Virus record (IMG/VR): IMGVR_UViG_3300003319_000356
Span: 1 to 32,739 of that record
Length of the DNA: 32,739 nt
Direction: 5' to 3' (one strand)
DNA from: a virus
Shown here piece after piece: positions 4,124 through 28,370 of this stretch. The notes beneath the pieces are model-generated. The model was not told where the DNA came from. It ran no database searches and worked only from the letters and a program-made list of their open reading frames with translations. The translations under genes and the position numbers were made by a program. Numbering within the stretch: the stretch's first letter is position 1; each line of letters opens with the position of its first letter.

Positions 4124-4371
4124 AGCTGTCCTCCTGGAACCAGCATATCGCCGCAGGGCAGCGGCACCTCACGCGGGTCGCACCCGAGCTCCTCGCGATA
4201 CGCAGCAAATTGCAGGATGAACGACTCTCTGGCCCAGTCGTCGTCCCATTCGTACTGCTGAATCAGCGGGATCGTGTTCTTGAGCTGCTCGCACGCGCGC
4301 GCTGCCTCTGGAGTCCCTGGCTGCGGGAGCGCCGCGCACGATGTACAGAGAAACAGAATCAGGTATCTCAT
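4120..4371 (-). CDS. small exported protein, possible outer-membrane spanin
   Basis: The 83-residue product begins with a short hydrophobic stretch (MRYLILFLCTSCAALPQP) resembling a lipoprotein signal. The lipobox is imperfect: Cys12 follows Cys-Thr-Ser, and Cys9 follows Leu-Phe-Leu. The mature part is short, acidic and helical, with two further Cys residues. A small exported protein directly upstream of the endolysin is consistent with an o-spanin/Rz1-like role, but it lacks the Pro-rich composition usual for Rz1. Both ends overlap neighbours as ATGA. Confidence 0.5.
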   Translation of the reverse strand: MRYLILFLCTSCAALPQPGTPEAARACEQLKNTIPLIQQYEWDDDWARESFILQFAAYREELGCDPREVPLPCGDMLVPGGQL

Positions 4372-6182
4372 GGTCCAATCGCAGTGAGGTACTGCTCCAC
4401 GGTTTGAGTTCCATCCGACGCCTTCCTAAGCCCGTACGTCGTATCGTTCGTCATCAGCGCGTACCCGGTGTCGTTCGGATGTCGAGAGTCGGAGCCGAAG
4501 TAGGTCGTGCTCCAGCCGGAGCCCAGCGCTTGGTACGGGCGCCAGCGGAAAATCTTGTGGCTCGGATGCGCCGCGTCCCAGGCATCCCAATAAGACGGTA
4601 CCCAGGCGTTGAAGTCCGCCACCAGCGTCGCAGCTGCGTCGACTCCGCCCGTTGCCTGAGCCGACGTGGCATACGGAAGGAACTCGGCGAGACACATGCG
4701 CGCGGTCGCAACCGAGGACGTCAGCCTGGTGTGCAGCGCCGTCACGGCAGCATCGTAGCTCGTCTGGAGCTGCGCCAGGGTCTTTCCGGGCACGTCCACG
4801 TCGTTCGTACCGACAAGCAGGGTCGCAAACTGAACTGTGGAGTACGCCTTGCCGGTGCCGTAATAGATGTTGATCTGCTGACTGACGACAGCGGCCATAT
4901 CGTTGCCGCCGAAGCCGCAGTGCTGGTTGTCGAAGAAGGATCCGCCAGCTTGCGGGCCCACAGCATCGACGTGGACGTTATTGGCGCTGTACCAGTTATA
5001 GAGCTCTTTGCGCCATTTCCCGTTTCCGCCGGATGCGGTAGTCGAGTCACCGATGAAGGTGATGGGGGTTCCGGTCGGAGTCGGCTGGTCGTTCGCGATG
5101 ATGTGGTTGTAGATCGCGCTCGCCTCCGAAGGCGTCACCGCGCGATTCATCACGCCCATCACCTGAATCTGGCCATCGATCGGGCTCGTCACGGATGCAG
5201 CGTGAAATGCTGCGCCCATCGCGTAACGGTCCGTGCTGAAGAGCCCCGTGTTGAGCGGCTGCGGATTGCTCGTATCCGCGACGTTGTCGAGGTAGGAGTA
5301 GAAGTTGATTCCGTCCGACGACGTCACGATCCAGATCTTGGTCGTGAGGCCCAGTGTCTGGCTGAAGAGCGCAGTCTGGAGTCCGAGGATGCCGTCGCGT
5401 CGGTTTGCTCGAGTGATGCCGCCGGAGCTCCAGGCACAATCGAAGAACTTGTTCGTATTGCCGGAGTTCCCGAGTGACGTCGACACGCGAGATCCGAGCG
5501 ACTCGAGGATGCGGCAGACCACAGTAATCGGTTTGCCTGAGCCATGCTCGAGCGCTGCGTTCCCGATTCCAGTCTGCGTATTGGCTGCTACGAACTCGAG
5601 ACACTTCGTGAACCCGGCACCCACGCGAATCGTCGGCGCTGTGCCGGCCGTGCCCTGAAACGTCGGCGCGGTTACACCTGGCGCGGCCTCGAGCAGGATC
5701 TCCGTGATCGGACCAGCCGTAGAAACCTGGACGCCCGGAGCTCCGGATATGAGCCGAGCATCAATCCAGAACCCATTGTTCGCTGCCCAGATACCAGGAA
5801 ACGGGACCGAAGATACCGACACCGTGACTGAGTTACTGAGGAATGCGCCGCCGACGGTGCGTCCGAGCAGCACCGAAATCGAGTGCGCGCCGTGCTGCAG
5901 CACATCCGGCGTGTACGTGAACGACCAGGTCAGGGCATCGATCTGGGTACCTGCGCCGAGCGGCGTCGCTGGGTAGTCGAAGAAGAAGTCTGCGCTCGTG
6001 ACGTTCGGAGCTTGGTCTGCGGCCACGCGCACCAAGATTGTGAACGGCTGGCCCTCCGGCACCGTCGTCCCGTTCGACGGCTGAATCACTAGCGCCGTGC
6101 CCGGCGGAGCGAGCACACGATTATTCCCGGTCGGAATCCGACCACGATTGAAGCGCACCCCGGGACGACGGCTGAAGCTCAT
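4368..6182 (-). CDS. receptor-binding/tail protein with SGNH esterase domain
   Basis: The 604-residue product has three parts. Residues about 25-120 resemble an Ig/cadherin-like beta domain. Residues about 130-350 resemble a LamG/concanavalin-type lectin domain. The C-terminal part is an SGNH/GDSL hydrolase with block I FIGDSTTAS (nucleophile Ser380), block II GFGGND (about 424), block III LVGTNDV (Asn460) and block V DSRHPND (Asp565, His568). All four catalytic or oxyanion positions are present, so deacetylation or de-esterification of a surface glycan is likely during adsorption. The ATG at 6182 is chosen because it overlaps the upstream stop (ATGA). Position between virion genes and the lysis cassette fits a tail fibre or spike. 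Confidence 0.85.
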   Translation of the reverse strand: MSFSRRPGVRFNRGRIPTGNNRVLAPPGTALVIQPSNGTTVPEGQPFTILVRVAADQAPNVTSADFFFDYPATPLGAGTQIDALTWSFTYTPDVLQHGAHSISVLLGRTVGGAFLSNSVTVSVSSVPFPGIWAANNGFWIDARLISGAPGVQVSTAGPITEILLEAAPGVTAPTFQGTAGTAPTIRVGAGFTKCLEFVAANTQTGIGNAALEHGSGKPITVVCRILESLGSRVSTSLGNSGNTNKFFDCAWSSGGITRANRRDGILGLQTALFSQTLGLTTKIWIVTSSDGINFYSYLDNVADTSNPQPLNTGLFSTDRYAMGAAFHAASVTSPIDGQIQVMGVMNRAVTPSEASAIYNHIIANDQPTPTGTPITFIGDSTTASGGNGKWRKELYNWYSANNVHVDAVGPQAGGSFFDNQHCGFGGNDMAAVVSQQINIYYGTGKAYSTVQFATLLVGTNDVDVPGKTLAQLQTSYDAAVTALHTRLTSSVATARMCLAEFLPYATSAQATGGVDAAATLVADFNAWVPSYWDAWDAAHPSHKIFRWRPYQALGSGWSTTYFGSDSRHPNDTGYALMTNDTTYGLRKASDGTQTVEQYLTAIGP

Positions 6183-6529
6183 GGCGACGGAGAGGTCTTC
6201 TTCTGGCCCGCAACGCGAAGCACGAGGAATCCCGCCCCGCTGGCGTCCCAAGAGATGTGGGTGTCCGAGGCCGTGATGTAGACTTGTTCCGATTGCCCGG
6301 AGCCGAGCGTGTCTCCGACGTCGTTGCCGGAGCCGGTCTGATCCTTCACGACCTGAGTCACGCTGGCGCCTCCGAGCTGGTAGTCCACGTCGGCACCGAC
6401 TGCCTGAATCCGGACCCAGCCGGAGCCGACGATTGCTGCCGAGAGAGGCGTTATGTTCCCGGTCGCGGACACCGCGATGCGCTGCTGCTTGCCCTGCCTC
6501 GGGCCGTAGATGAGATCCAGGTCTGCCAT
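6179..6529 (-). CDS. hypothetical virion-associated protein (116 aa)
   Basis: The small beta-rich protein (ISWDASGAGFLVLRVAG near the C-terminus) contains Gly/Ser/Thr-rich segments such as TGSGNDVGDTLGSGQ and no cysteine. It lacks membrane segments or enzymatic motifs. Size, composition and position just upstream of the SGNH receptor-binding protein suggest a fibre-attachment, trimerisation or head/tail decoration role; this is inferred from context only. Its ATG shares one base with the TAA of the large internal virion protein gene. Confidence 0.65.
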   Translation of the reverse strand: MADLDLIYGPRQGKQQRIAVSATGNITPLSAAIVGSGWVRIQAVGADVDYQLGGASVTQVVKDQTGSGNDVGDTLGSGQSEQVYITASDTHISWDASGAGFLVLRVAGQKKTSPSP

Positions 6530-9654: not shown

Positions 9655-11427
9655 TCAGCGCACCCTCGGCACGGCTTCGGGCAGCACCTCGGCGCCCACC
9701 GCTCGAGACGTCGTGTTCGGCGCGTTGCGATGGTAGTCGTTCAGCTGGTCAATGATCGGGACCAGTCGCTGCCCATACACACCGAGCCCAGTGCGGGCCT
9801 CCCCTTCGAGTCGATTGTATTCCGATGCCAGGTTGTTGTACCACTCCGCGAAGTAAGCCGGCTCGAGCTCCATCTGCTTCAGCAGCGCTTCGTAGCGGGT
9901 GAGGGCCTTGCCTCCGGCCGCGCGCACCGACGTAGAGAACGCGCTTGCGATGGCGCTCATGAACTTCTTGGCCTGCGGATCGTCCGACGCGGCGATGTTT
10001 CGGAGCAAAGATCCGAAGGGCATCGCCGGATTCGTTGCCAGCTGCTGCTGATAAAATCGCTTCACGTCCGAATCGGGCATGTTCTTCAGCGCGGACCGCA
10101 TCAGGTCTAACGTCTGATCCATCTCCGGAAGCCCAACCTTTTCGCGGTACTCGATGTAGTCCTTGATCTTGGCATCAGCATCCGCTGGCTTGAGCCCAGT
10201 TGCTTTTGCCGCCATCGAGATAAATTGAGGCGGCACGTACTTCACGGACTTCTGGACCGTGGTCTTCCCGGTCGACGTCTTCGCCATGTCCATCAGCGCG
10301 TCGCGGTAGCGCTCGTCGATGCTCGCCTTCAGGTCGTTGAATCTCGCATCGTTCAGCGTCACACCCATCTGAGCCGCCGTGCGCTCCACCGTACTCGCGA
10401 ACCCCTTCCAGAACATGGCCCGCTGCACCGCACGTGCCTCGGCATCCGACTGCGTGTGCTGCCGGATAAGCTCGTACAGCGACTGAGCGCCGCGGAGCTT
10501 GTTGCCTCGCTGCTCTGCGTTCAGCTTCTCGGTCGCCATGTCTGCCTCGAGCTGCCGGTCGAAGCTTTGAAGAAACGGGTTCTGCCCCGTGCGTGCACCC
10601 GCCGCGCCACCGAGCATGGACGCCAGCATGAACCCGATGCGCTTGCCGGCGCCCCACTTCGCCATCTTGTCCGTCGGAGACTCGATCGGGTGGTCAAGCG
10701 CATCGAGCGCGGCCTGGACCTTCTGCAGCGCTCCCTCTCGTTGCTTCGCTGCCTCGCGCTGGCCTTCGGATTCACCGGAGAGCAGGACCTTGTCCGCGAG
10801 CGCCGCGTGCTCTGCTGCGATACCGCGCGTTCGTTCGATCGCCTCGTTCGCAACCTTCTGCTTCGCAGCAGACTCGATCCGGTTCTCGAACCCCTGCTTG
10901 TTCAGAATCGCGGCGTCTTCCGGAATCGGTACCCCGGACTCCTGCTGGGTCGTCACGCGCTCCGGCTGCATGTGCCCCGGCACCATCGCTCCAACGGCGT
11001 TGACCGTGAACCGTCTCTGCAGGTCGGCTAGCGCGTCGTAGTTCGACGGATTGCGCATCGAGATGTCATCCGTACCGACGCGCTCGTCCGTCTTCGCCTG
11101 CTCGCCCTTGACTCTCTCCGAGTCCGTGGGCTGATTCCGGGCGACAGTGGCGACGCGGTTGCCGACAGCGGCATACGGATCGAGCCCCACAGCCTCCGGA
11201 TCTGGGCCTACGGCCGTGGCGCCGTGCCGCACGTCCTGCAGCATCGCTCGGTTCGGCTTCTCGCGCGGCGTGAGCATCTCGGACGGAATCTCCTGCGCCT
11301 GCGCCCGCGTGATGTACGGAGGCGGAACGTCGACCGTCATTTCCGGAGGCACCGGACTCAGCGAGTTCGGATCGATTCCGGCGGCGGCCGCTGCACGGAG
11401 CAGCTCCTGTTCTCTACTCGTTGGCAT
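9655..11427 (-). CDS. internal virion-type protein (590 aa)
   Basis: The start is placed at the ATG at 11427, which has a GGAG-containing purine-rich leader; an upstream ATG at 11460 would overlap the ADP-ribosyltransferase gene more. The N-terminal part is Pro/Glu-rich and probably flexible, the middle has long Ala/Glu/Gln helices, and a hydrophobic stretch (KRIGFMLASMLGGAAGA) could be membrane-active. The C-terminal half is helical with a conserved-looking segment EPAYFAEWYNNLASEYNRL. No known family was recognised. Its place beside other Gly/Ala-rich virion proteins suggests an ejection or head-core role. It overlaps the upstream gene by 14 bases. Confidence 0.65.
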   Translation of the reverse strand: MPTSREQELLRAAAAAGIDPNSLSPVPPEMTVDVPPPYITRAQAQEIPSEMLTPREKPNRAMLQDVRHGATAVGPDPEAVGLDPYAAVGNRVATVARNQPTDSERVKGEQAKTDERVGTDDISMRNPSNYDALADLQRRFTVNAVGAMVPGHMQPERVTTQQESGVPIPEDAAILNKQGFENRIESAAKQKVANEAIERTRGIAAEHAALADKVLLSGESEGQREAAKQREGALQKVQAALDALDHPIESPTDKMAKWGAGKRIGFMLASMLGGAAGARTGQNPFLQSFDRQLEADMATEKLNAEQRGNKLRGAQSLYELIRQHTQSDAEARAVQRAMFWKGFASTVERTAAQMGVTLNDARFNDLKASIDERYRDALMDMAKTSTGKTTVQKSVKYVPPQFISMAAKATGLKPADADAKIKDYIEYREKVGLPEMDQTLDLMRSALKNMPDSDVKRFYQQQLATNPAMPFGSLLRNIAASDDPQAKKFMSAIASAFSTSVRAAGGKALTRYEALLKQMELEPAYFAEWYNNLASEYNRLEGEARTGLGVYGQRLVPIIDQLNDYHRNAPNTTSRAVGAEVLPEAVPRVR

Positions 11428-13054
11428 TCTCTGCTCCTGCTCCAGCTGCGGCAGCCACACCCGTGATCGGGAGCGCCTGGCCCCACTCCGGACGCTTCAC
11501 TTCCATGGCATCGATGATTACCGTTCCGGTCGCCGGGTCTTCTTTCGAGCTCAAAATCTTCCACCGCTTCCCCGGGCGGAAGAGAACCTCGTCCTCGGAA
11601 CTTCCAAAGGCGGAGTTCGATTTGCCCTCAGAGGTCTTGCCAGAAATCGGGACCCCGGACTCCGACCGAAGCCTCAGAAGCACGCGCTTCTCTCCCCTGC
11701 CCGGAGCATGGCCGAATCCCTCCCCGTAATTCGCAGTAGCTGAAGTGCTCAGGAAGCTTTCATTCCTGAATCCGCCAGCAGCCTTCCAGACATCGATCAC
11801 TTCCTGAGGAAGTGTCAGACCTCGAAACGTGGTACCGCGAATCACGTGGCCTGCCTTCTCGGCATCCTCCAGTATCCTGCCAAGGCCGGCGGCGCGCTCG
11901 CGAAGCATGGGCTCCTTCGCGATATTCCAGTGCCCTTCTCTCCCGGCGAGCATGTTATTCATACCCTCGACTGCGAAGGTGTAATCGTACAGGTGCTGCT
12001 TATCCGGGTGCTGTGCGATGAAGTCGGCAGCGCGCTTGGCTTCAGCGGAAGTAACGCCGCGGCCCGCAAGCTGCTCCAGTCTGCGGTCCACTGGTGACTT
12101 GCTAGGCACAGACTGTGGCGGGGCGTACGTCGGCCCTTCTGACACCTTTCCAACTTCCGGGCTCTTCTTCGGCGGGTTGTTGTAGTAAGCGTCGTAGTCC
12201 GCTCCTGTATTATACGTGCCCTTCTTCTTGGCCATGTCTATGGCTTCACTGAAGTTCTTGGCCCCGGCCTTGATCTCGTTCTTGATGTAATCGAAGTAGG
12301 AATCGTACTCATTTACCTGAGCGGCGGCGTCCTTTTTCCACTTCGACCAGGCATCCTTGTCCCCGAAGGCAAACCCCTGCTTGTCCGGCACATCTTTCGC
12401 AAACATGAGCGCGTCGTCATGCGGGAGCCCCTTATCCATCAAGTCGTTCTTGATCGCCTGCTGAAACGACGTCAGCGACTCCTGGGGAGCGTCAGCCACC
12501 GCGACACCGCGCTGCGATGCGCGCCGAATCGCTTCCCACTCCCGATCGGACACGTTCGGAGGCCGCACAAATCCGGTCCGGCCGAGCTCTGCGCGGACCG
12601 CAGGCGCGGCCTTCATCGCGGCTCCGGTCAAAGCCCCTGCGCCTGCCTCGCCTGCCAGATCTCCTGTCGCCGCCCAGTCCGGGAACGCTCGTTCGCCTGC
12701 CTCGCGCCGGGCGCGCGTCGCTGCCGTAGGTTCAGCTCGAGCGAGCGACTCGGCCTCGTCGACGGCCTGGTTCGCGTTCAGGCGCGTCACCTTCGACACG
12801 TCGAGCCCAGGCACGTTCCGGAACACCGCAGCGACCTTCTGAACCGGGTCCATCAACGCGGTCACGGCCGTGCCAGCCGCGCGACGCACCAGCGTCGCCT
12901 CCGGCGATGTCGGTGGAGCAGCGCTCTGCGGATCCGGCACTCCGCTTCGGCCGAGCGTGTCGTAGTCCTCGAACGAGAGAACTCTCCGATCCGCCGGAGT
13001 CTGATGCGACAGCAGCGCGGACCGCACCCTGTCTCGCTCCGACGGGTCGGGCAC
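11414..13054 (-). CDS. virion-locus protein with C-terminal ADP-ribosyltransferase domain
   Basis: The 546-residue product starts with GTG, preceded by GAGGAG. Residues 1-320 are unrecognised: Pro/Ala-rich at first, then Lys/Tyr-rich helices. Residues about 340-520 form a complete R-S-E ADP-ribosyltransferase: Arg411 in TTFRGL, the STS motif at 436-438 (SFLSTSATA), and the bi-glutamate turn Glu487-Asp-Glu489 (SSEDEVLFRPGKRWKI). The ExE pattern is typical of arginine-specific enzymes (VIP2, iota toxin, T4 Alt/ModA class). They transfer ADP-ribose from NAD+ to target proteins. Location inside the internal-virion gene block suggests the protein is packaged and injected, like T4 Alt; this is inferred. 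A short Ala/Gly-rich tail follows the domain. Confidence 0.85.
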   Translation of the reverse strand: MPDPSERDRVRSALLSHQTPADRRVLSFEDYDTLGRSGVPDPQSAAPPTSPEATLVRRAAGTAVTALMDPVQKVAAVFRNVPGLDVSKVTRLNANQAVDEAESLARAEPTAATRARREAGERAFPDWAATGDLAGEAGAGALTGAAMKAAPAVRAELGRTGFVRPPNVSDREWEAIRRASQRGVAVADAPQESLTSFQQAIKNDLMDKGLPHDDALMFAKDVPDKQGFAFGDKDAWSKWKKDAAAQVNEYDSYFDYIKNEIKAGAKNFSEAIDMAKKKGTYNTGADYDAYYNNPPKKSPEVGKVSEGPTYAPPQSVPSKSPVDRRLEQLAGRGVTSAEAKRAADFIAQHPDKQHLYDYTFAVEGMNNMLAGREGHWNIAKEPMLRERAAGLGRILEDAEKAGHVIRGTTFRGLTLPQEVIDVWKAAGGFRNESFLSTSATANYGEGFGHAPGRGEKRVLLRLRSESGVPISGKTSEGKSNSAFGSSEDEVLFRPGKRWKILSSKEDPATGTVIIDAMEVKRPEWGQALPITGVAAAAGAGAENANE

Positions 13055-19717: not shown

Positions 19718-20947
19718 TCAGACGGGCAGCTTGATGCGGAGATTATCGTTCGGCTTCGTGCAGATCAGGTCTCCGTACCAGCCCTGCCTGATTTCGACGC
19801 CGTTCGAGGCCACCTCGTTCAGCATCCGGTCGTCCGTGAGGAAGCGCGGGGCGCCCTTCAGCGTCCAGAACTTCCAGGAGCTTCGCGTACAGGCGAGCGC
19901 GTCGTCGTCCGCGAAGTTGATGTCCGCCATCACGCGCGTCTCGCGCCCGCGGGCATTGATCTTAATGCTGTCGAAGGCGAAGTTCGCAACCTTCACGGTC
20001 TCCCGGACGCAAGATGCGCCGAGCTCGCGCGAAAGGTCGGTGAACCGACCGTAGTTCAGCCACACGACTTCGGGGTTGCAGTTCGCGATCGAGCCGAAGC
20101 TGAGTGCGCGCTCGAGCGATTCCGCGAGCCCGTACGTGCTGCCGTCGAAGGCGTACCCGGCGAGATCACCTTCGGACTCGGACCGGTCCACGCCCTTGAA
20201 CAGAGTCGCGGAAACGGGCCGGTTCGCCACCGTCGGGATCCAGGCCTTCGTACCGGTGAGCGCGTTACCGATGCCGCCCTTCCAGTAAACCAGGTCGGTC
20301 GCGACCACGCCCAGCGTCGTCAGGTTGTCACCGCCGAGAGTCGTCGAAACCGTCAACGTGAGGCTGTTCGGGTCCTTCTTCGAGATCACCGCGAACCCGA
20401 GCACGCCAGCGCGCGGAGTCGTCGGCGTGCCGGCCGCGCAGAACACCACGCGGTCCTTCACGTTGAACTTCGGAAACTGGTCCTGGGTCACACGGAACGT
20501 GGTCGCCGTGAGACCGGCGCTCTGCACGACGCCTTGAAGGCCCGTGCCGTCGCCCTGCATGTCCCAGCCGAGGCGCTGAACTTGCTTCTTGAACCCGTTC
20601 TCCACCTGAAGCTCGTACGCATTCATGTACGAGTTCTCGGACCCTTCCGAGGCCTCGATCGTCTCGTTGTCGATCGCGATAACATTGAACGCGCGAGTCC
20701 TGGTGACCGTGAAGTTCCGGATGTCGCCACCCGACTTCGCCTCTTGCGCGGTCTGGAAATCCGGGCTGGTACCACCGCCGGGCCCGATCTCGATCGGGAT
20801 CTCGGCGTTGCGTCCTCCGAATCCCTGTTTCTTGGGGATCCAGGTGTAAAAATTCTGCTCGCCCACCCCGTACGAAGCGATGCGCTTCTGCGGGAAGAGC
20901 ACATAGAGTGCCGACTGATATGCAGTCGGCGTCAACGGCGTTGCCAT
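19718..20947 (-). CDS. major capsid protein
   Basis: The 409-residue product follows the scaffold gene, as capsid genes do in podoviruses. Features in line with an HK97-fold capsid subunit are the N-terminal arm, an extended charged segment (FTVTRTRAFNVIAIDNETIEASEG), a long helix region after residue 100 (ELQVENGFKKQVQRLGWDMQGDG) and a C-terminal beta-rich domain ending in KPNDNLRIKLPV. No protease domain or obvious propeptide is present. The separate scaffold and absence of a nearby protease suggest assembly without proteolytic maturation, as in P22 or T7. Identification rests on order, size and style. Confidence 0.8.
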   Translation of the reverse strand: MATPLTPTAYQSALYVLFPQKRIASYGVGEQNFYTWIPKKQGFGGRNAEIPIEIGPGGGTSPDFQTAQEAKSGGDIRNFTVTRTRAFNVIAIDNETIEASEGSENSYMNAYELQVENGFKKQVQRLGWDMQGDGTGLQGVVQSAGLTATTFRVTQDQFPKFNVKDRVVFCAAGTPTTPRAGVLGFAVISKKDPNSLTLTVSTTLGGDNLTTLGVVATDLVYWKGGIGNALTGTKAWIPTVANRPVSATLFKGVDRSESEGDLAGYAFDGSTYGLAESLERALSFGSIANCNPEVVWLNYGRFTDLSRELGASCVRETVKVANFAFDSIKINARGRETRVMADINFADDDALACTRSSWKFWTLKGAPRFLTDDRMLNEVASNGVEIRQGWYGDLICTKPNDNLRIKLPV

Positions 20948-20962
20948 TCAAAAACTCCCCGG

Positions 20963-22141
20963 CTAGGCACCTCCTCGGAGGCGAGCCCAAGCCGCTTTGC
21001 GTGCCTGTTCCGCGTCCTCTTCAGTCCACACGCCGTCGTCTTCGACGCGGGCGCGTGAGCGTTCCGAGTTCGCTTGGTTGGTGACTGGCTTCACAGCCGC
21101 AGGAGTTTTCGACGACTCTACGTCAGCGGCCTGCCCGCTGGCTCCCACCAGCAGATCGCGCTGCCGCGTGAGATCGGCCTCATATTGATCCATCCAATGC
21201 TGCGCCGCAAGCAGATTCTTGGTCGTAGCGTAGTGCCCGAGGATGTTCTGCAGCGTGGTCTTCACGATGTGAGGCACCCCGTACTTCGAAGCCAGCGGAT
21301 ACTTCCCAGAGGCGACGAGGTCCTGAATCTCCTGTCCCACCTTCGCCTCGAACTGAGAGCTCAGGTGGTCGTCCTGCGCCTTCTGGTATGCCTCCCGAAG
21401 CGCCTTGTTTTCCTTCTCGAGCGTGTCCGCGCGCGAGTCGAAGCTCGTGCGCACGTCCTGGATCTGCTTCTCGATCGGGATCTGGCCCTGGCTCGCAACA
21501 TACTTCGTCAGCTGGTCCCAGCTCCAGCCGATCTCTTCGAGCGCGGTGAGCGGCTCCTTCGCCGCACGCTGCCGGCGCGACTCGCGCTCCTGTTGCCACT
21601 GCTGCCGTTCCTGGTGAAACGCATCCCGCTCCCGCTGCCAGTTCTGGCGCTCGGCTTCAAACGCTCCGCGCTCCTGCGCGTGCTCCGTCACCCGCGCCTT
21701 CAGCCGCTTCTCCTGCGAGTGCAGCTTCGCAAAAGCGTTCGAGAGCTTCTCGTCATCGATCGAGCCGTCCTCGCGCGCGACGTCCTTCCGGCGCTTCGTA
21801 AGGTCCGGGTCTTCCGGCTCCGCCGCGGGCTCCGTCGGCTCTGTCTTGGGTGCGACTTTCGGCTCGGGCCTGGACTCTGCCTTGGGCTCCGGCTTCGGCG
21901 GCTCGGCAGCCGCAGGCGGATCCGGCTTCGACTCCGGCTTAGCCTTCGGCTTCTTGGGCTTCTCGCCGCGCAGAACCTTCTGGGCCTGTTCCCGGAGCTC
22001 TTCCAGGTCCAGATCCCCGCCCCCGTCCTCCGGCACGTCCTCGAACGAATTCGGCCCGCCGTCGATGACAGGCTCGAGCACTGTAGAAGGCGCCTGAGTC
22101 GGCGCGGCATTGCCGCCGCCGATGACTACTTCGGCGCTCAC
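20963..22141 (-). CDS. scaffolding protein
   Basis: The 392-residue product has the typical scaffold make-up. The N-terminus is acidic and is followed by a long Lys/Pro/Glu-rich disordered segment (about 58-110, repeated KPEPK/KPES units). Very charged coiled coils (about 120-200, with QRERDAFHQERQQWQQERES) come next, and the C-terminus is basic (residues about 370-392, EQARKAAWARLRGG), which in P22-like phages contacts the coat protein. It starts with GTG overlapping the portal stop (GTGA) and lies directly before the capsid gene. Confidence 0.8.
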   Translation of the reverse strand: MSAEVVIGGGNAAPTQAPSTVLEPVIDGGPNSFEDVPEDGGGDLDLEELREQAQKVLRGEKPKKPKAKPESKPDPPAAAEPPKPEPKAESRPEPKVAPKTEPTEPAAEPEDPDLTKRRKDVAREDGSIDDEKLSNAFAKLHSQEKRLKARVTEHAQERGAFEAERQNWQRERDAFHQERQQWQQERESRRQRAAKEPLTALEEIGWSWDQLTKYVASQGQIPIEKQIQDVRTSFDSRADTLEKENKALREAYQKAQDDHLSSQFEAKVGQEIQDLVASGKYPLASKYGVPHIVKTTLQNILGHYATTKNLLAAQHWMDQYEADLTRQRDLLVGASGQAADVESSKTPAAVKPVTNQANSERSRARVEDDGVWTEEDAEQARKAAWARLRGGA

Positions 22142-23943
22142 GCTGCCATCCCTCCCGCAGGCGCCGCAGGCGCGGGCATTGGCGGCGGCATCATCGCCTG
22201 AGTCGTGACCATGAAGTTCCTCACTTTTTGCAACCGCTCCTCATATTCGGGTTTCACCATGCCGTTCGAGTCCATGAATCCAAGCTTCGCCTCGTGATAC
22301 ATCAGATTCGCCGTATCGAGGCAGAGCGCGAGATTCATCTGCGGGTCAGGCGCCTGCTGCGGACCACCGCGAAGCATGACGTCGATCATCTTCTCGATGA
22401 TCTTGCGCGGCGCGAGCCGGCGCCTCGTCACCGAGATAATGTCCGGATGGTCCATGTTCTCCAGAATGTCGTCCGGGTTCTGGACCAAGCCCGACTTCAC
22501 CATGCGCTCGAAGTTATCGATCTGGCCCGCGGGCGTCTCGCCGAGCAACGACGTCGAGTATACGCGCATCAGGTACTCGTTCTCTGCCAGGTTGATGTCC
22601 CTCTTGAAGTCGATCTCCTCAACGCCCTCTTCGCCCCAAACACGGACCTTGTAGTTCTTCTTCTGGGCCGCGATACGGAGCGCAAGCTTCACCGCCGTCA
22701 TGAACAGGTTCTCGTACCCGCGAATCACGACGCTGAAGTTGTCGTTCTGCATCTCGTCGGCGACGAGCTGGGCACGCCCAGACTCGAACTGAGTTGGCGT
22801 CTCCGAGTGCGCCATCATCTGAGAGATACGAGCGATCTCGTAAGCTCGCTGATACAGCCGGTCCAGGTGCGCAAATACCTCCGGATGCACCGTCGCGAAT
22901 GCCTTGACATCAGGCGCTTTCCCTGAGTAGAGCAAGATCGAGCCCGGCACATCGGTGATAGTGGTCTTTTGGACATTGCTGCCTCTGTCGACCATGACAT
23001 AAGGGTTGCCGAGCAGGTGCATCGCGTTCTGAATCGTGCGAAGCAGCCGGTTGATCTCGGCCTGAATCCCCTTCAGCGATTCCGCAAGTCCCATCCCGTA
23101 GAACCCGAGCGGTGATTCGGCCCAGTAGATTCGCGGAAACGGGTCCCAGTGCGGCCACGTGGTCCGCGCGAGCTCGATACCGCCCGCACTCTGAATCATC
23201 AGGCCGTCGTCTGCCCCGTCCTCCGACGCCAGGTGGTACGCTTCCTCGAACCGGACCATATTCGTACGCCGCTCGCTGTAAAGCGCCGCGAGCTCCTCTT
23301 CATCGTCGGCGCCTGGACTCTGCAGCTCCATGATCTCGGCCTTGTGCTTCGGAAACATCCGCGCGAGCCGGCCCTTGTCGATGAACTTCCGCTGATAGAT
23401 GTTGCGCGGCGTCCCATACATGCCTTCGGCATGGTCGACGATAATCTCGCCCGGGAACGTACGTTCGATCTTGATGCCCTTGTCGGTGTCGCATACCTTG
23501 AAGAACCCCGTGCCGAAAATGCAGGCGTCCATCATCACGCGCGGTCCGTGCCGATAGCACTCGTTCTCGTACAGCACCCCGCGACTCCAGCGCTCGAGCA
23601 GCTTCGCCTTATACTGATCTTCCGACGTCGCACCGTAGGTCTGAAACCAGGGGTTCGGGCGCGACTTCGTGATCTTCGCTGTCACCGCGTCGCACATGTT
23701 CCGGACCACGTTGAACGCGAGCGGCGCGTCCGTGAACCGGTTCGCGATGCGCGCGTAGCCCTGCGGGCCCAAACCGGCCACTGCGAAGTTCCGGTACATG
23801 CGCAGATGCTGAAGATTCGCGAGCCGGAGCCCGTCCTGACTCGTCATTATCTGGTCGAGCGTGTCCTTGACCGCTTGCCCGCCTGAGCCGGGCTCTGACC
23901 GCCACCAATCCGAAAAGTGCTCGTCATCAATGAACTGAGCCAT
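22138..23943 (-). CDS. portal protein
   Basis: The 601-residue product resembles podoviral (P22/epsilon15-type) portal proteins. It has an N-terminal helical region (LANLQHLRMYRNFAVAGL), a conserved-looking clip/stem core (NVVRNMCDAVTAKITKSRPNPWF), a segment SPLGFYGMGLAESLKGIQAEINRL typical of the portal wing, and a long helix/barrel region ending in Met/Pro-rich sequence. It would form the dodecameric DNA gate at the capsid vertex. An AGAGGA ribosome binding site lies seven bases before its ATG, inside the tail of the inserted HNH gene; the ATG overlaps that gene's TGA. Confidence 0.9.
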   Translation of the reverse strand: MAQFIDDEHFSDWWRSEPGSGGQAVKDTLDQIMTSQDGLRLANLQHLRMYRNFAVAGLGPQGYARIANRFTDAPLAFNVVRNMCDAVTAKITKSRPNPWFQTYGATSEDQYKAKLLERWSRGVLYENECYRHGPRVMMDACIFGTGFFKVCDTDKGIKIERTFPGEIIVDHAEGMYGTPRNIYQRKFIDKGRLARMFPKHKAEIMELQSPGADDEEELAALYSERRTNMVRFEEAYHLASEDGADDGLMIQSAGGIELARTTWPHWDPFPRIYWAESPLGFYGMGLAESLKGIQAEINRLLRTIQNAMHLLGNPYVMVDRGSNVQKTTITDVPGSILLYSGKAPDVKAFATVHPEVFAHLDRLYQRAYEIARISQMMAHSETPTQFESGRAQLVADEMQNDNFSVVIRGYENLFMTAVKLALRIAAQKKNYKVRVWGEEGVEEIDFKRDINLAENEYLMRVYSTSLLGETPAGQIDNFERMVKSGLVQNPDDILENMDHPDIISVTRRRLAPRKIIEKMIDVMLRGGPQQAPDPQMNLALCLDTANLMYHEAKLGFMDSNGMVKPEYEERLQKVRNFMVTTQAMMPPPMPAPAAPAGGMAA

Positions 23944-24368
23944 CAGATATTCCTCTTCGGCCTAGAAATCGCCTCTTCTATCGTCCACCCGAGCTTCAGT
24001 CTCGCGAATAGCATATGATAGTTGATCCCGTATTTTTCTGCAGCCTCGGCAAGAGATATTTTCTCTCCGCGACACTCTACAATACGGTTTGTGCTTCTGT
24101 TTCTGCACTGCTCCTTCATGGAGGCCCAGCGACAGTTAGATTTTGAGTAGCCCGCGTTGTTATCGATGCGATCTAAGCGATAGCTTGGAGATGGGCACTC
24201 TCCCATGTCTTTCAGAAAATTCTCGAACGATGCCCAGGCCGGATCAAAGGTAATTCCACGTCCACCGTATCGATGGAATGCATGTTGCGTATGCCTTGTA
24301 CACCTACGCTTCATAGCTTCCCAAGATCTATAGGTTCTGGTCCGGATCCTGTTCCACGTCTGAGCCAT
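23943..24368 (-). CDS. HNH homing endonuclease (free-standing insertion)
   Basis: The 141-residue product has the HNH core YRLDRIDNNAGYSKSNCRW (residues about 63-81) with Asp66-Arg-Ile-Asp and the NCRW block, preceded by a Trp/Arg-rich helix (SWEAMKRRC). A C-terminal helix-turn-helix-like segment (ISLAEAAEKYGINYHMLF) resembles NUMOD/IENR-type DNA-binding modules. The gene is visibly AT-richer than its neighbours and separates the terminase-side genes from the portal, as expected for a mobile HNH gene. Both this gene and the portal gene begin ATGGCTCAG, so the insertion is bounded by that nine-base direct repeat. Confidence 0.85.
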   Translation of the reverse strand: MAQTWNRIRTRTYRSWEAMKRRCTRHTQHAFHRYGGRGITFDPAWASFENFLKDMGECPSPSYRLDRIDNNAGYSKSNCRWASMKEQCRNRSTNRIVECRGEKISLAEAAEKYGINYHMLFARLKLGWTIEEAISRPKRNI

Positions 24369-24614: not shown

Positions 24615-24772
24615 TTTCCAAAAACCCCAGTGAATGCGTCGCCGATGCTGAACGCATCCGGATTCTTCACGCTGACCTCGAACTCTCGGACCAGGTCACC
24701 GTTCTCGTCACGGAAGCCAACCCAGATCGTTTTCTTGTCCCGGTCCAAAGCAACCACGATTCTGTCTTCCAT
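24611..24772 (-). CDS. small protein between terminase and portal genes (53 aa)
   Basis: This short gene fits exactly between two neighbours: its ATG overlaps the terminase stop (TGATG) and its TGA overlaps the next ATG (ATGA). The product is beta-rich and charged, MEDRIVVALDRDKK followed by IWVGFRDENGDLVREFEV, with a C-terminal FSIGDAFTGVFG. No family was recognised. The perfect junctions on both sides and codon use like its neighbours support it as a real gene. Confidence 0.7.
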   Translation of the reverse strand: MEDRIVVALDRDKKTIWVGFRDENGDLVREFEVSVKNPDAFSIGDAFTGVFGK

Positions 24773-26340
24773 CAGTACATCTCCCACTGCTGGTATGCGT
24801 CGAGCGTCTCCTCGATGCCGAACAACTTGTCGTATTCGTCGCCTTCATCGGTCGCCGTAGCCTTCGACTCCGCCGGACTCTCCTCGATGTACTGGCCACA
24901 GAGCATCGCAAGCATCGCTGCGTAGTCGGCGTGGCGCCCGTCGGCCGTCTCGGTGAACACGATCGAGAACTCGCCGCCGCTATTGATGCGCTTCTTCACG
25001 CGGAGCAGGTCCTCGCGCAGCTTCGCGTTCTTCGGCAGTTCGATCGCGTCGTTCGAAAACCTGGCCTTCAGACCTAGAAAATACGCCTTCTTCAGCGTTG
25101 CGCTCAGAATGCGCGGCGCGAGCTCGAATTCGTAGTCGAGCTCCTTCGACAGGTCCCGCACGATGTCCCGGAGCGCGTCCACCGCCCACTGATCGGTCAG
25201 AATCGTGCGGATCCCGAACTTCTTCAGCGTTGGCACGAGCTCCGTTAGTACGGTCTTCGGCGATAGCGGGTCGGCGGTGGATCCGGTCCACTGCTCCGCG
25301 TGCACACAGCGGTACTTCCGGTTGTCGGTCGTGTCGGCGATGCCGAACGTCCAGCTGTTCCCGCGCGTCGCCGGGTCCATGCATGCCGTGTACAGGCGGC
25401 CGGGCTCCCGCTCGAGGTTTCCTGACTCGCGCGTGGCGCGCTCGATCTCGACCGACGTGAACAGGTTCTGTTCCGGATCCAAGAACTGCGCGAGCACGTC
25501 CGTCCGGTGCGCGTCCGGGTCGCGTTTCCGAAGATCTTCACACCGCTCCGGCGTCCACCAGTAAGGGTTCATGCGCGGCCCCGTCGCGCGCACCACCGTG
25601 ATCTGCTGGTCCGGGTTCTCCCAGTTCTCCTGGACCATGTCATACACGTCCCCGATCGCGCCGACCGGGCTGCCCACGTAGATCACCACCGTTCCCGGCA
25701 GCATGCGGCCGACGACGGCGCTTCGCATCGACTTCAGATTCACCACGCCGTCCGCTTCGGACGCGATGCGCGGCGCCTCGTCGAAAATCATCCCCGCCAT
25801 CCAGCGCGAAATCAGCGTCGTGCCGCTGCGGGCGCCGGCCGCCACCATTATTTCGATTGGGGTCCCCGAGGCGTGCCGGACCAAGATCCGCTCCGACGTC
25901 GGCTCGGCCAGCAAGATCTGGTTCAGGACCGGACTCTCCATGAACGCGCCCTTCAGGTACGCGAACGCAGCGTCCGCCTGGTCCGTGTACCGCGACACGA
26001 GCGACACCCGCGGGATCTCTCCCGGTCGCAATCCAGGCGGCATCACGCAGTGCTGGCTCGCCCACGTCACACCGACGCACGCGAGCAGGGTCTTCGCGCA
26101 GCGAATCGCTGCCAGCACGACCACTTCCGGCGTCGGCTTCGGCTCGATTCCCCCGAATGCCTCCAGAACCTCCGGGTCGGTGGCGTACGCTGGGGGCATC
26201 GGGACGCCGCACATCACGTACGAGACAGCGCGCTGAAGCTTCGTCGCCGTCGTGAGCCCGTACCCGTGCTCCGACACCAAGAGCTCCTCAGGCGAGCTGA
26301 AGAGCTTCTTGAGCCGGAGAGCTGCGATCTCGGCTCGCAT
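24772..26340 (-). CDS. terL: terminase large subunit (TerL)
   Basis: The 522-residue product has the two-domain terminase layout. The ATPase part carries a degenerate Walker A-like loop (AAIRCAKTLL, about 77-86) and a clear Walker B, MIFDEAP, with Asp187 and Glu188. The nuclease part has the RNase H-like acidic residues Asp322 (CMDPATRGNSWTFG), Asp383 (ILTDQWAVD) and Asp472 (GRHADYAAML). The enzyme cuts concatemers and drives DNA into the procapsid through the portal. The Walker A lacks the canonical Gly-Lys-Thr spacing, as in several terminase lineages. It is followed by a coupled small gene. Confidence 0.9.
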   Translation of the reverse strand: MRAEIAALRLKKLFSSPEELLVSEHGYGLTTATKLQRAVSYVMCGVPMPPAYATDPEVLEAFGGIEPKPTPEVVVLAAIRCAKTLLACVGVTWASQHCVMPPGLRPGEIPRVSLVSRYTDQADAAFAYLKGAFMESPVLNQILLAEPTSERILVRHASGTPIEIMVAAGARSGTTLISRWMAGMIFDEAPRIASEADGVVNLKSMRSAVVGRMLPGTVVIYVGSPVGAIGDVYDMVQENWENPDQQITVVRATGPRMNPYWWTPERCEDLRKRDPDAHRTDVLAQFLDPEQNLFTSVEIERATRESGNLEREPGRLYTACMDPATRGNSWTFGIADTTDNRKYRCVHAEQWTGSTADPLSPKTVLTELVPTLKKFGIRTILTDQWAVDALRDIVRDLSKELDYEFELAPRILSATLKKAYFLGLKARFSNDAIELPKNAKLREDLLRVKKRINSGGEFSIVFTETADGRHADYAAMLAMLCGQYIEESPAESKATATDEGDEYDKLFGIEETLDAYQQWEMY

Positions 26341-26343
26341 GCA

Positions 26344-26574
26344 CTACCGGTACCTGACCCGCTTCACCGCAGCCCACGGCACCCGATCGCGGCCCTCGCT
26401 GCTCTGAATCACCACCCCGATCGCGTCTTCCGTGATCGTCACACCGTCGGCCGCGTGCACCATCCGAACCTGCGTTCCGGCGCCGAGCCCCGCCGACTTC
26501 GTGAATCGCTCCTGCGTCTCCACGAAACTGACCCAGGCGATCGTGGGCGCTGGAGGCGCCTTCGGCTCGTTCAT
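26344..26574 (-). CDS. hypothetical protein (76 aa)
   Basis: The start ATG at 26574 overlaps the Tad2-like stop (ATGA), which favours it over a longer reading in the same frame. The product is beta-rich (AWVSFVETQERF, QVRMVHAADGVTITEDAIGVVI) and ends in VPWAAVKRVRYR, reminiscent of small SH3- or barrel-like proteins. No family was recognised. It ends three bases before the terminase start, so it is translated immediately ahead of TerL. Confidence 0.65.
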   Translation of the reverse strand: MNEPKAPPAPTIAWVSFVETQERFTKSAGLGAGTQVRMVHAADGVTITEDAIGVVIQSSEGRDRVPWAAVKRVRYR

Positions 26575-26849
26575 TCGACGACCTGCCAGTCGGCAGCAAG
26601 AATGTCCGTCTGACTCGCGAGCCACGGAACAAAACAGTCGTCCGCGGTCTTCATCATCAGGTAGGGTAGGAATCGACACACGGTGCCCTCCGGAATCCCA
26701 GTGGCCTCCGCCGTGTTCTTGTTGATGGGAATCCCGTCCGGATAGGCCTTCTGCAGCACGATATACATGCCTTTGCCGTTCCAGCCGGACCGCTGGAGCT
26801 TCTTGCCCAGACGCAGCTGCGTTAACGCGTACTCGAACGGAGCTTTCAT
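26571..26849 (-). CDS. Tad2-like (DUF2829) anti-Thoeris protein
   Basis: The 92-residue product matches the DUF2829 pattern closely: an N-terminal helix FEYALTQLRLGKKLQRSGWNG, the KGMYIVL strand, a variable loop, LPYLMMKTADDCFVPWLASQTDILAADW and the final QVVE. DUF2829 contains Tad2, a homotetrameric phage protein that binds and sequesters the cyclic ADP-ribose-type signal produced by Thoeris ThsB, thereby silencing the defence. Length and core motifs are intact. The start is ATG at 26849, overlapping the stop of the upstream gene (ATGA). It lies in the terminase cluster rather than with the small right-pointing genes. Whether this homologue binds the same signal cannot be seen. Confidence 0.85.
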   Translation of the reverse strand: MKAPFEYALTQLRLGKKLQRSGWNGKGMYIVLQKAYPDGIPINKNTAEATGIPEGTVCRFLPYLMMKTADDCFVPWLASQTDILAADWQVVE

Positions 26850-27187
26850 GAATAGAAATCCCTTTGCTGCAGTAGCTCGATAACTTCCTGACGTTCCTGC
26901 TCGAGCTGCAACAGAAGCGCCGCGAGTCCTTCGCGCGTCCCCAAATCCGCCTGATTCTGCCCGTGACTCCGCGCGAGCCGCTTCATCAGCCGGTCGTGCA
27001 CATCCACCATCAGCTTCACCAGCGTCTGCGGAATCGGCCCGTCCTGCTGCTGATACCGCTCCCACTCTTTCGCCACCGCCTCGAGCATCTTCCGCTCGAT
27101 GTCGTTCAGGTCCTGACTCGTGCCTGGGCCGCGCATACTGCGGAACTTGACACAAGTTGCCATAGCTTGCAACACATCCAGTCGCAT
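26846..27187 (-). CDS. helical protein, first gene of the left-pointing operon; possible TerS
   Basis: The product is up to 113 residues and entirely helical, with a C-terminal Gln/Glu-rich coiled coil (ALLLQLEQERQEVIELLQQ) and a middle section rich in Lys/Arg (LVKLMVDVHDRLMKRLARSHG). Candidate starts are ATG at 27187, 27163 and 27136; none has a convincing ribosome binding site. An inverted repeat (27144-27158) lies just before the 27136 start. As the first gene before TerL it could be a small terminase, but no helix-turn-helix is obvious, so this is only a positional guess. Confidence 0.55.
   Translation of the reverse strand: MRLDVLQAMATCVKFRSMRGPGTSQDLNDIERKMLEAVAKEWERYQQQDGPIPQTLVKLMVDVHDRLMKRLARSHGQNQADLGTREGLAALLLQLEQERQEVIELLQQRDFYS
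27144..27158. promoter_or_regulatory. inverted repeat AACTTG-ACA-CAAGTT
   Basis: Perfect six-base arms (AACTTG/CAAGTT) around three bases. It lies about eight bases before the third possible start (27136) of the first left-pointing gene, so it could act as an operator or translation-control hairpin if that start is used. A second small pair (GTTGC 27156-27160, GCAAC 27168-27172) is nested beside it. No function is demonstrated. Confidence 0.4.
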
Positions 27188-27506
27188 GTATGGTCATGTG
27201 TGGCACAGCCGCAGGGGCCTCGGCCGGGCCCTCTGGACGCGCGCTAGCCTGGCCCGGGACCAGGGCCGTGCTGGGCTCAGGCTGCCCGCTGGCGAGCTTT
27301 TCGACGGGTGATGCGGGTGTCGGTGGCTTCGGATGGAGTTGGCTCGTTTACGGGGCTATTCGGGACTGTATAGGAGTGTCTTCAGTATTTTCTGAGCCCG
27401 AGAGGGGGTCCCCCGCGCCGGCCACCCTCCCTTCGAAAAAGGGATGCTCTGTCGGCCGCCGGTCCAGTGCCGGCCCCATGGCTGAACTACCGACTGGCCG
27501 ACTGAG

Positions 27507-27521
27507 TTAGACTCTGTCTAA
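27507..27521. promoter_or_regulatory. inverted repeat TTAGAC-TCT-GTCTAA
   Basis: Perfect six-base arms around TCT, followed by an A tract and a CCGGCC box. It lies in the divergent control region. It could be a repressor operator; no T-run follows on either strand in the right place, so it does not look like an intrinsic terminator. Confidence 0.4.
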
Positions 27522-27524
27522 AAA

Positions 27525-27539
27525 CCGGCCCGCGATCCA
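27525..27539. repeat. 15-base block CCGGCCCGCGATCCA, copy 1
   Basis: This block recurs identically at 27756-27770, and each copy is followed by a similar TCT-containing stretch. Copy 1 follows an A-rich run after the 27507 inverted repeat. Part of the repeated AT-tract/CCGGCC pattern of the control region. Confidence 0.6.
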
Positions 27540-27755
27540 TTCTTCGCCACGGTGCGTCGAAGACCGGGTCACGGCCCAGTACAGCGCGCTGCGTCGTGCT
27601 CGACCTGGCCACTTTCGTCGGCCTTTCATCTGGTTTTTATGCCGGCTGGCCGTTTCAGTTTTTTATCCGGCTCTCGGGCCGTTCTTCGTCTCGGTGCGTC
27701 ATTCTCACGGGCCGGTCGCCGATCTGTGTCTAATGAATTCGGGTAGTTAGCCTGT

Positions 27756-27770
27756 CCGGCCCGCGATCCA
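27756..27770. repeat. 15-base block CCGGCCCGCGATCCA, copy 2
   Basis: Second identical copy of the block at 27525-27539, on the same strand 231 bases away. It follows GTTAG/CCTGT sequence resembling that upstream of copy 1. Confidence 0.6.
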
Positions 27771-27848
27771 GTCTACCTCAGGAGCCCCATTTATTCAGAA
27801 TTTCGTCGAAAAAAAGTTCGCCTATGCCCCCTCTACCACCCCTCCCAA

Positions 27849-27862
27849 TTCTCTTTAGAGAA
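27849..27862. promoter_or_regulatory. inverted repeat TTCTCT-TT-AGAGAA
   Basis: Perfect six-base arms around TT, located just before the first long direct repeat. A candidate operator in the divergent control region; too short and without a T-run to be called a terminator. Confidence 0.35.
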
Positions 27863-27873
27863 ACTGTAGAACA

Positions 27874-27925
27874 AGATCGCTATTTCTTAATTAAATAGAC
27901 CAGCCGGCCAAGCTCATTCGTCCAA
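27874..27925. repeat. 52-base imperfect direct repeat, copy 1
   Basis: Matches copy 2 (28055-28106) at 46 of 52 positions by hand alignment. Contains AGATCGCT, the AT core TTTCTTAATTAAA, a CCGGCCA box and a terminal TTCGTCCAA. The six differences are scattered single substitutions, which suggests selection to keep the pattern, for example as protein-binding sites or phage-type promoters. Confidence 0.75.
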
Positions 27926-28054
27926 CTGACCGCATCCAGACGCCTGAAAAACAGCATCTACCAGTGTCAGCCAGAATCATCGCATATCCGTGTGACCGCG
28001 TTTTTTTTGTGACCATACAATTCGGCCCATTATCCAGCCGACTACTTCCAGGAA

Positions 28055-28106
28055 AGATCGCTGTTTCTTAATTAAACTGACCAACCGGCCAGGCTCCTTC
28101 GTCCAA
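28055..28106. repeat. 52-base imperfect direct repeat, copy 2
   Basis: Second copy of the element at 27874-27925, same strand, offset 181 bases. A degenerate partial third copy, keeping only the CCGGCC box and ATTCGT, may lie at about 28259-28283. Confidence 0.75.
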
Positions 28107-28192
28107 TCCACGGACAAAACAAGCTATACATTCTAACAGTACATGAGAACGCCCTATCAGCTTTCGGCCAATGGGCCCAAAACGGAAAACGC

Positions 28193-28209
28193 AACTGGTT
28201 CAACCAGTT
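28193..28209. promoter_or_regulatory. inverted repeat AACTGGTT-C-AACCAGTT
   Basis: Perfect eight-base arms around a single C, the longest perfect palindrome noticed in the control region, about 160 bases before the first right-pointing gene. The symmetry suits a dimeric DNA-binding protein. It is followed by TAAAAACAC rather than a T-run, so an operator is more likely than a terminator. Confidence 0.5.
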
Positions 28210-28340
28210 TAAAAACACTCAGCACGACTCTTGCATAACACTGCTCGAGCTCCCGTTTCAGGCCGGCCAGCCGTTATTCGTGAAACAGCAAGACACCGCT
28301 TGACTGCGCTCGACTCCTGATGCATGCTGTCTGCACATGA

Positions 28341-28355
28341 TCGGTCATCGACCGA
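28341..28355 (+). promoter_or_regulatory. leader hairpin TCGGTC-ATC-GACCGA before first right-pointing gene
   Basis: Six-base perfect stem with a three-base loop, immediately followed by the ribosome binding site GGAAGGAG and the ATG at 28371. Two comparable hairpins precede the other uncoupled starts in this operon (28683 and 29501). It could control translation or protect the transcript end. Confidence 0.5.
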
Positions 28356-28370
28356 GGAAGGAGCATCGAG

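Follow-up and report, generated by a model that had tools for sequence, protein, structure and literature searches.

The window analysed here, which is the whole 32,739-nt stretch of IMG/VR record IMGVR_UViG_3300003319_000356, contains a tad2-like gene (PF11195) at 26571..26849 on the minus strand, and its product quite probably works as a Tad2-family signal sponge against Thoeris defence, with glycocyclic ADPR (gcADPR) as the most likely ligand. Homology and predicted fold together make the reading as a Tad2-type, probable anti-Thoeris sponge well supported. Like the Tad2 proteins of known structure, it would form a tetramer and bind, uncleaved at the protomer interfaces, an ADP-ribose-derived signal from a host TIR (Thoeris) enzyme, most likely gcADPR; once the signal is soaked up, the NAD-depleting effector should stay off.

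Family, fold and ligand-pocket segments

The reading frame runs on the minus strand from an ATG at 26849 to a TGA at 26573-26571 and encodes 92 aa. Its GC content at the three codon positions (0.56/0.42/0.76) fits a coding sequence and is in line with the neighbouring genes, whereas a longer in-frame N-terminal extension offered by the ORF finder has the pattern reversed, so that the 92-codon start is right; AAAGGGAT, rich in purines, precedes the ATG. The product matched Pfam PF11195 (Tad2-like, formerly DUF2829) over residues 5-91 at E = 2.3e-24 and 86.2 bits, with a curated cut-off of 25 bits, which as a profile comparison is no chance match, and PHROGs 1048 and 872 also matched in profile searches; PADLOC has no model for a tad2-like gene. 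The preliminary description had proposed a Tad2-type gene with an intact DUF2829 core and had named an HMM search and a structure overlay as its checks. With both checks run, the proposal is borne out: the two quoted motifs (RSGWNGKGMYI and MKTADDCFVPWLASQTD) are present in the product, the DUF2829 match is nearly full length, and the pocket segments are kept in the structural alignment.

The AlphaFold2 monomer model of the window protein, built with 44 sequences, reached a pLDDT of 94.4. When searched with Foldseek and VIA-align, every Tad2/AcrIIA7 entry ranked at the top (Z 11.5-12.8, with 73-91 residues aligned at 36-42% identity), and the next fold followed at Z 6.4. The PDB sequence search matched seven distinct sequences, all of them Tad2/AcrIIA7, with a best E value of 1.6e-14. 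SPO1 Tad2 (gp34.65; PDB 8sme, 8smf, 8smg, 8wje) overlaid at Z 11.6-12.8 with about 36-42% identity and resembles the window protein in all pocket segments, including QTD at helix a3, and ModTad2 from a Myroides odoratus prophage (PDB 9eib with hisADPR, 8v3e) overlaid at Z 12.3-12.7 and shares R-GWNGKGM and DILA-DW. HgmTad2/AcrIIA7 (PDB 8kbi-8kbm, 9kzr) and SptTad2 (8wjd) were among the best sequence matches, and WLASQTD is identical in them. On profile match and modelled fold, the assignment of the window protein to the Tad2 family is solid.

The characteristic Tad2 assembly is a homotetramer that has two sites for gcADPR. To such a site, one protomer contributes its b1-b2 and b3-b4 loops and its strand b4, and another its b1-b2 loop, b4-a3 loop and helix a3 (review PMC12043709). 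These segments are taken at the level of the review rather than from listed ligand contacts, and we mapped them onto the window protein ourselves. By conservation and the review, residues 20-28 (RSGWNGKGM; codons at 26766..26792, minus strand) cover the end of strand b1 and the b1-b2 loop, which is part of the pocket in Tad2, and residues 68-88 (TADDCFVPWLASQTDILAADW; 26586..26648, minus strand) cover the remaining segments, namely the b3-b4 loop, b4, the b4-a3 loop and a3, as aligned to SPO1 Tad2, ModTad2, HgmTad2 and SptTad2. Across the 44 sequences, R20, W23, N24, W76, D82 and D87 are invariant, and G22, G25, K26, G27, M28, S79, L84 and W88 are conserved in at least 90%. Thirteen residues (R20, G22, W23, N24, G25, K26, M28, W76, S79, D82, A85, D87 and W88) are identical to those of all four solved proteins. 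Over 33 pocket-segment positions, the window protein is identical to HgmTad2 at 24, to SPO1 Tad2 and SptTad2 at 21 each and to ModTad2 at 19. By alignment and model, the ligand-pocket segments of Tad2 are thus preserved in the window protein.

The subclade insert and the candidate ligands

The window protein carries an insert at residues 33-57 (QKAYPDGIPINKNTAEATGIPEGTV; 26679..26753, minus strand), and the model places a helix in it. This stretch of 25 residues, with the pattern Q..YPxGI..N..TA.A.....EG, has a mean conservation of 0.86 in a 13-member subclade versus 0.18 in the same columns of the other rows, a contrast that is partly by construction because the motif [QE]..YP.G[IV] itself served to select the subclade rows. 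Nevertheless, the motif fixes only about 5 of the 25 columns, and N43, T46, A49 and G55 lie outside it yet are invariant; among subclade members, conservation of the insert equals or exceeds that of the pocket segments (0.81 and 0.74). In a 51-row tree the 13 rows fall on one branch with support of 91/96, the branch being drawn open since only few columns could be used. The rows are the window protein, contig proteins L003-L007, L009-L011 and L013, Brevibacillus phage Abouo, SpaA1 P7 and A511 gp64, and the YPxGI insert as such is found in Brevibacillus phages Abouo and Jimmer, Staphylococcus phage SpaA1 P7, Listeria phage A511 gp64 and contigs L003-L011 and L013. The contig members are 56-76% identical to the window protein but come from other phage types with other gene neighbours. 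In L010 (4740-5267), as in L037, L053 and L072, a degenerate Tad2-like domain is fused ahead of an intact one, with PHWSGFW or PSWGGYW for GWNGKGM and, in L010, a score of 20.6 bits, just below the cut-off.

The YPxGI subclade contains none of the Tad2 structures present in the searched copy of the PDB. Since the conserved insert is unlike that of every solved Tad2, the ligand specificity may differ from theirs, as far as sequence comparison goes; the bolder idea, that the near-invariant insert makes up an additional or modified site at which a nucleotide signal new to Tad2 would bind, we hold to be unlikely. The insert is one mild new point, the family and the gene position being already known from other phages.

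The known ligands of Tad2 proteins are diverse, with gcADPR for SPO1 Tad2, His-ADPR for ModTad2, and both gcADPR-type signals and cyclic dinucleotides for HgmTad2 and SptTad2 (PMC12043709, PMC13299392, PDB entries). The sequence of the window protein does not tell gcADPR, His-ADPR and a cyclic dinucleotide apart, and gcADPR is by inference the likeliest of them. Residues 80-82 read QTD in the window protein, SPO1 Tad2 and HgmTad2, whereas ModTad2, which also lacks the YPxGI insert, has VSD in this b4-a3 region; this difference hints against His-ADPR binding of the ModTad2 type, without deciding the matter. P015 of Sinorhizobium phage AP-20-A resembles the present case as a podovirus protein with a putative Tad2-like domain, but it was described in a 2026 report as closest to MoTad2 (PMC13299392).

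The same sponge fold might instead serve mainly against CBASS, with a cyclic dinucleotide as main ligand or with both kinds bound. HgmTad2 and SptTad2 take cyclic dinucleotides via their b2-b5 insertion (PMC12043709; PDB titles 8kbk, 8wjd), and the window protein likewise has an insert at b2-b5, helical in the model, and a core closest to HgmTad2. However, the stretch between the equivalents of M28 and K67 is 38 residues long in the window protein, as against 44 in SptTad2 and 50 in HgmTad2, and the insert sequence is unlike theirs; SPO1 Tad2 and ModTad2 have 33 residues, so that the window insert exceeds that of SPO1 by five and also differs from it in sequence. SPO1 Tad2 does not bind 3'3'-cGAMP (PMC11722364). 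On this balance, we consider a mainly anti-CBASS role improbable. An AcrIIA7-like block of Cas9 is more remote still and can hardly be expected: HgmTad2, one of the closest solved relatives, has also been deposited as AcrIIA7 or 'Inhibitor of Type II CRISPR-Cas system' (8kbi, 8kbk, 9kzr), but structures of the same protein with cADPR and cGG explain why the pocket is conserved, and it is in this signal pocket that the conservation of the window protein falls.

The packaging operon and the timing of expression

The gene order in the leftward direction is ORF113-tad2-ORF76-terL. The tad2-like gene shares an ATGA overlap with each of its small neighbours, and terL starts 3 nt past ORF76, so that the earlier placing of the gene in a left-pointing operon, two genes before TerL, was right. 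ORF113 (26846..27187, minus strand), the first gene of the operon, is all-helical in a single-sequence model with pLDDT 60, and ORF76 occupies 26344..26574 (minus strand); profile searches gave no family match for either. ORF113 was considered as a terminase small subunit, and is at most a putative one, given the missing family match, the weak helical model and the unlikeness to the candidate in contig L056. Further left of terL lie two small ORFs, an HNH endonuclease gene, the portal gene, a probable scaffold gene and a probable major capsid gene. The HNH gene (23943-24368, minus strand; phrog_3377, E 5.5e-49) sits between the small ORFs and the portal gene in the lowest-GC kilobase, and it is likely a homing endonuclease insertion.

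The terminase large subunit (24772..26340, minus strand) is divergent, and was recognized by tblastn to annotated terminases, with two weak matches among 50,697 phage records, one of 25% identity (E = 1e-10) to a protein 'similar to terminase' of Virus Rctr16k, and by a remote match to phrog_5909 (E = 0.007). By eye it contains IRCAKT (Walker A-like) and MIFDEAP (Walker B-like), and it is 39% identical to a protein of contigs L056/L057, located there in the same terL-portal-scaffold-head order. The portal protein (22138..23943, minus strand) matched PF16510 P22_portal at 27.6 bits, over the cut-off, as well as phrog_332 and phrog_156. The probable major capsid protein (19718..20947, minus strand) had no family match in profile searches and is 22% identical (E = 4e-10) to the L056 protein at the same place. 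For ORF113, ORF76 and the capsid candidate, the only relatives found were in the near-identical contig IMGVR_UViG_3300003267_000262, so no synteny argument can be drawn from them. The PF11195 gene is absent from L056/L057, both at the terL locus and elsewhere on these contigs, which are fragments; its lack at this place in the terL relatives is as expected of cargo rather than of a core structural gene.

Two other proteins of the window were noticed. One of 546 aa (11414-13054, minus strand), encoded among the virion proteins of the operon, has a C-terminal R...STS...ExE pattern (TTFRGL, FLSTSA, SSEDEVLF) and sub-threshold matches to the ADP-ribosyltransferase exoenzyme family PF03496 (E 0.05) and phrog_16625 (E 0.08); it may be an ADP-ribosyltransferase that, like T4 Alt, is ejected. 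The other, of 627 aa (4368-6251, minus strand), combines a Big_7 Ig domain with a GDSL lipase/acylhydrolase domain and likely modifies a surface polymer as a tail spike or fibre.

The major head protein is the activator of Thoeris cyclases from staphylococci and streptococci, and is sensed by ThsB1 (PMC12578639). If the tad2-like gene is transcribed on a packaging/head polycistronic mRNA, synthesis of the sponge would coincide with that of the capsid protein, the trigger of some Thoeris systems, or slightly precede it. A late Tad2 would therefore make sense, and the paradox of an anti-defence gene in a structural operon, raised in the preliminary description, would be gone; the late position of the gene is plausible in this light. 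Alternatively, a promoter within the 1.1-kb divergent region (27188-28370) could drive early expression of tad2, before that of the structural genes proper, an option that is possible but doubtful. The tad2-like gene is the second past this region, whose 53-nt direct repeats could be regulatory, but the single sigma-70-like site there points rightward and is at chance level, and no terminator-like site was found on the minus strand between tad2 and terL. The two 53-nt repeats (27873-27925 and 28054-28106) are 89% alike and 181 nt apart, contain GGCCGGYTGGTC and TTTAATTAAGAAA on the minus strand, have no further copy elsewhere in the window, and may be promoters or operators. Three imperfect 34-nt repeats (27525-27789; 68-79% to the reference), rich in CCGGCCCG, lie in the same divergent intergenic region.

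Tad2 genes among the head genes of other phages

The preliminary description had treated the place in a structural operon as peculiar, and this view is weakened by the many phages with Tad2 genes in their packaging/head module. In the same subclade, contigs L005 and L010 and phage SpaA1 share this placement with the window: the order is terL (phrog_38, E = 4.5e-104), tad2, portal (phrog_156) and major head protein in L005, and portal/adaptor (phrog_332), tad2, protease/scaffold and major head protein in L010, while SpaA1 tad2 is flanked by head morphogenesis and scaffold genes. The arrangement of L010 recurs in L070, a contig of a Bacillota bacterium. Elsewhere, tad2 is flanked by capsid and tail tubular protein genes in Klebsiella phage PWKp7, lies directly upstream of the terminase in Lactobacillus phage Lb and Mycobacterium phage Curiosium, and is flanked by lysis genes and terminase in Kapi1, IME10 and Pm86. 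In A511, VLCpiS11a, N4 and the SPO1-like Adastra it lies outside the packaging/head module, with the SPO1-type gene of Adastra in a run of small hypothetical genes, unlike the head operon of the window, and further phages have related Tad2 genes in accessory regions such as those for tRNAs or replication.

In 10 of the 20 IMG/VR records in which phrog_2 detected a TerL, tad2 lay on the same strand within 5 kb of it, with 5.9 expected at random placement (p ~0.03); without contigs under 15 kb, the count was 8 of 18 versus 4.2 expected (p 0.04). A phrog_12 portal scan matched 3 of 37 records and was left out of the position analysis. The strong enrichment beside TerL that had been expected beforehand was thus only modest. 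The packaging-linked position is recurrent, with modest enrichment, and unexceptional for Tad2.

This recurrent place among head genes, together with the operon position in the window, might also suggest a virion or head-assembly component with a Tad2 fold. The best non-Tad2 fold match of the model was a neck protein of phage 812 (8qkh chain S; Z 6.4 over 67 residues), which would suit such a role. However, its identity is only 13% and its Z score is in a range that the tool calls commonplace, and we judged the resemblance as a shared small-barrel arrangement rather than homology. Furthermore, the L056/L057 relatives keep the terL-portal-scaffold-head order without Tad2, and related genes occur in the accessory regions named above, so that a structural role appears very unlikely.

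Our results add a new Tad2 gene from a very divergent phage, and indicate that packaging-linked Tad2 is a recurrent arrangement. The conserved insert of its subclade provides a concrete lead on ligand specificity. A Tad2 linked to packaging fits capsid-triggered Thoeris, in which sponge and trigger of the defence would be produced at the same time.
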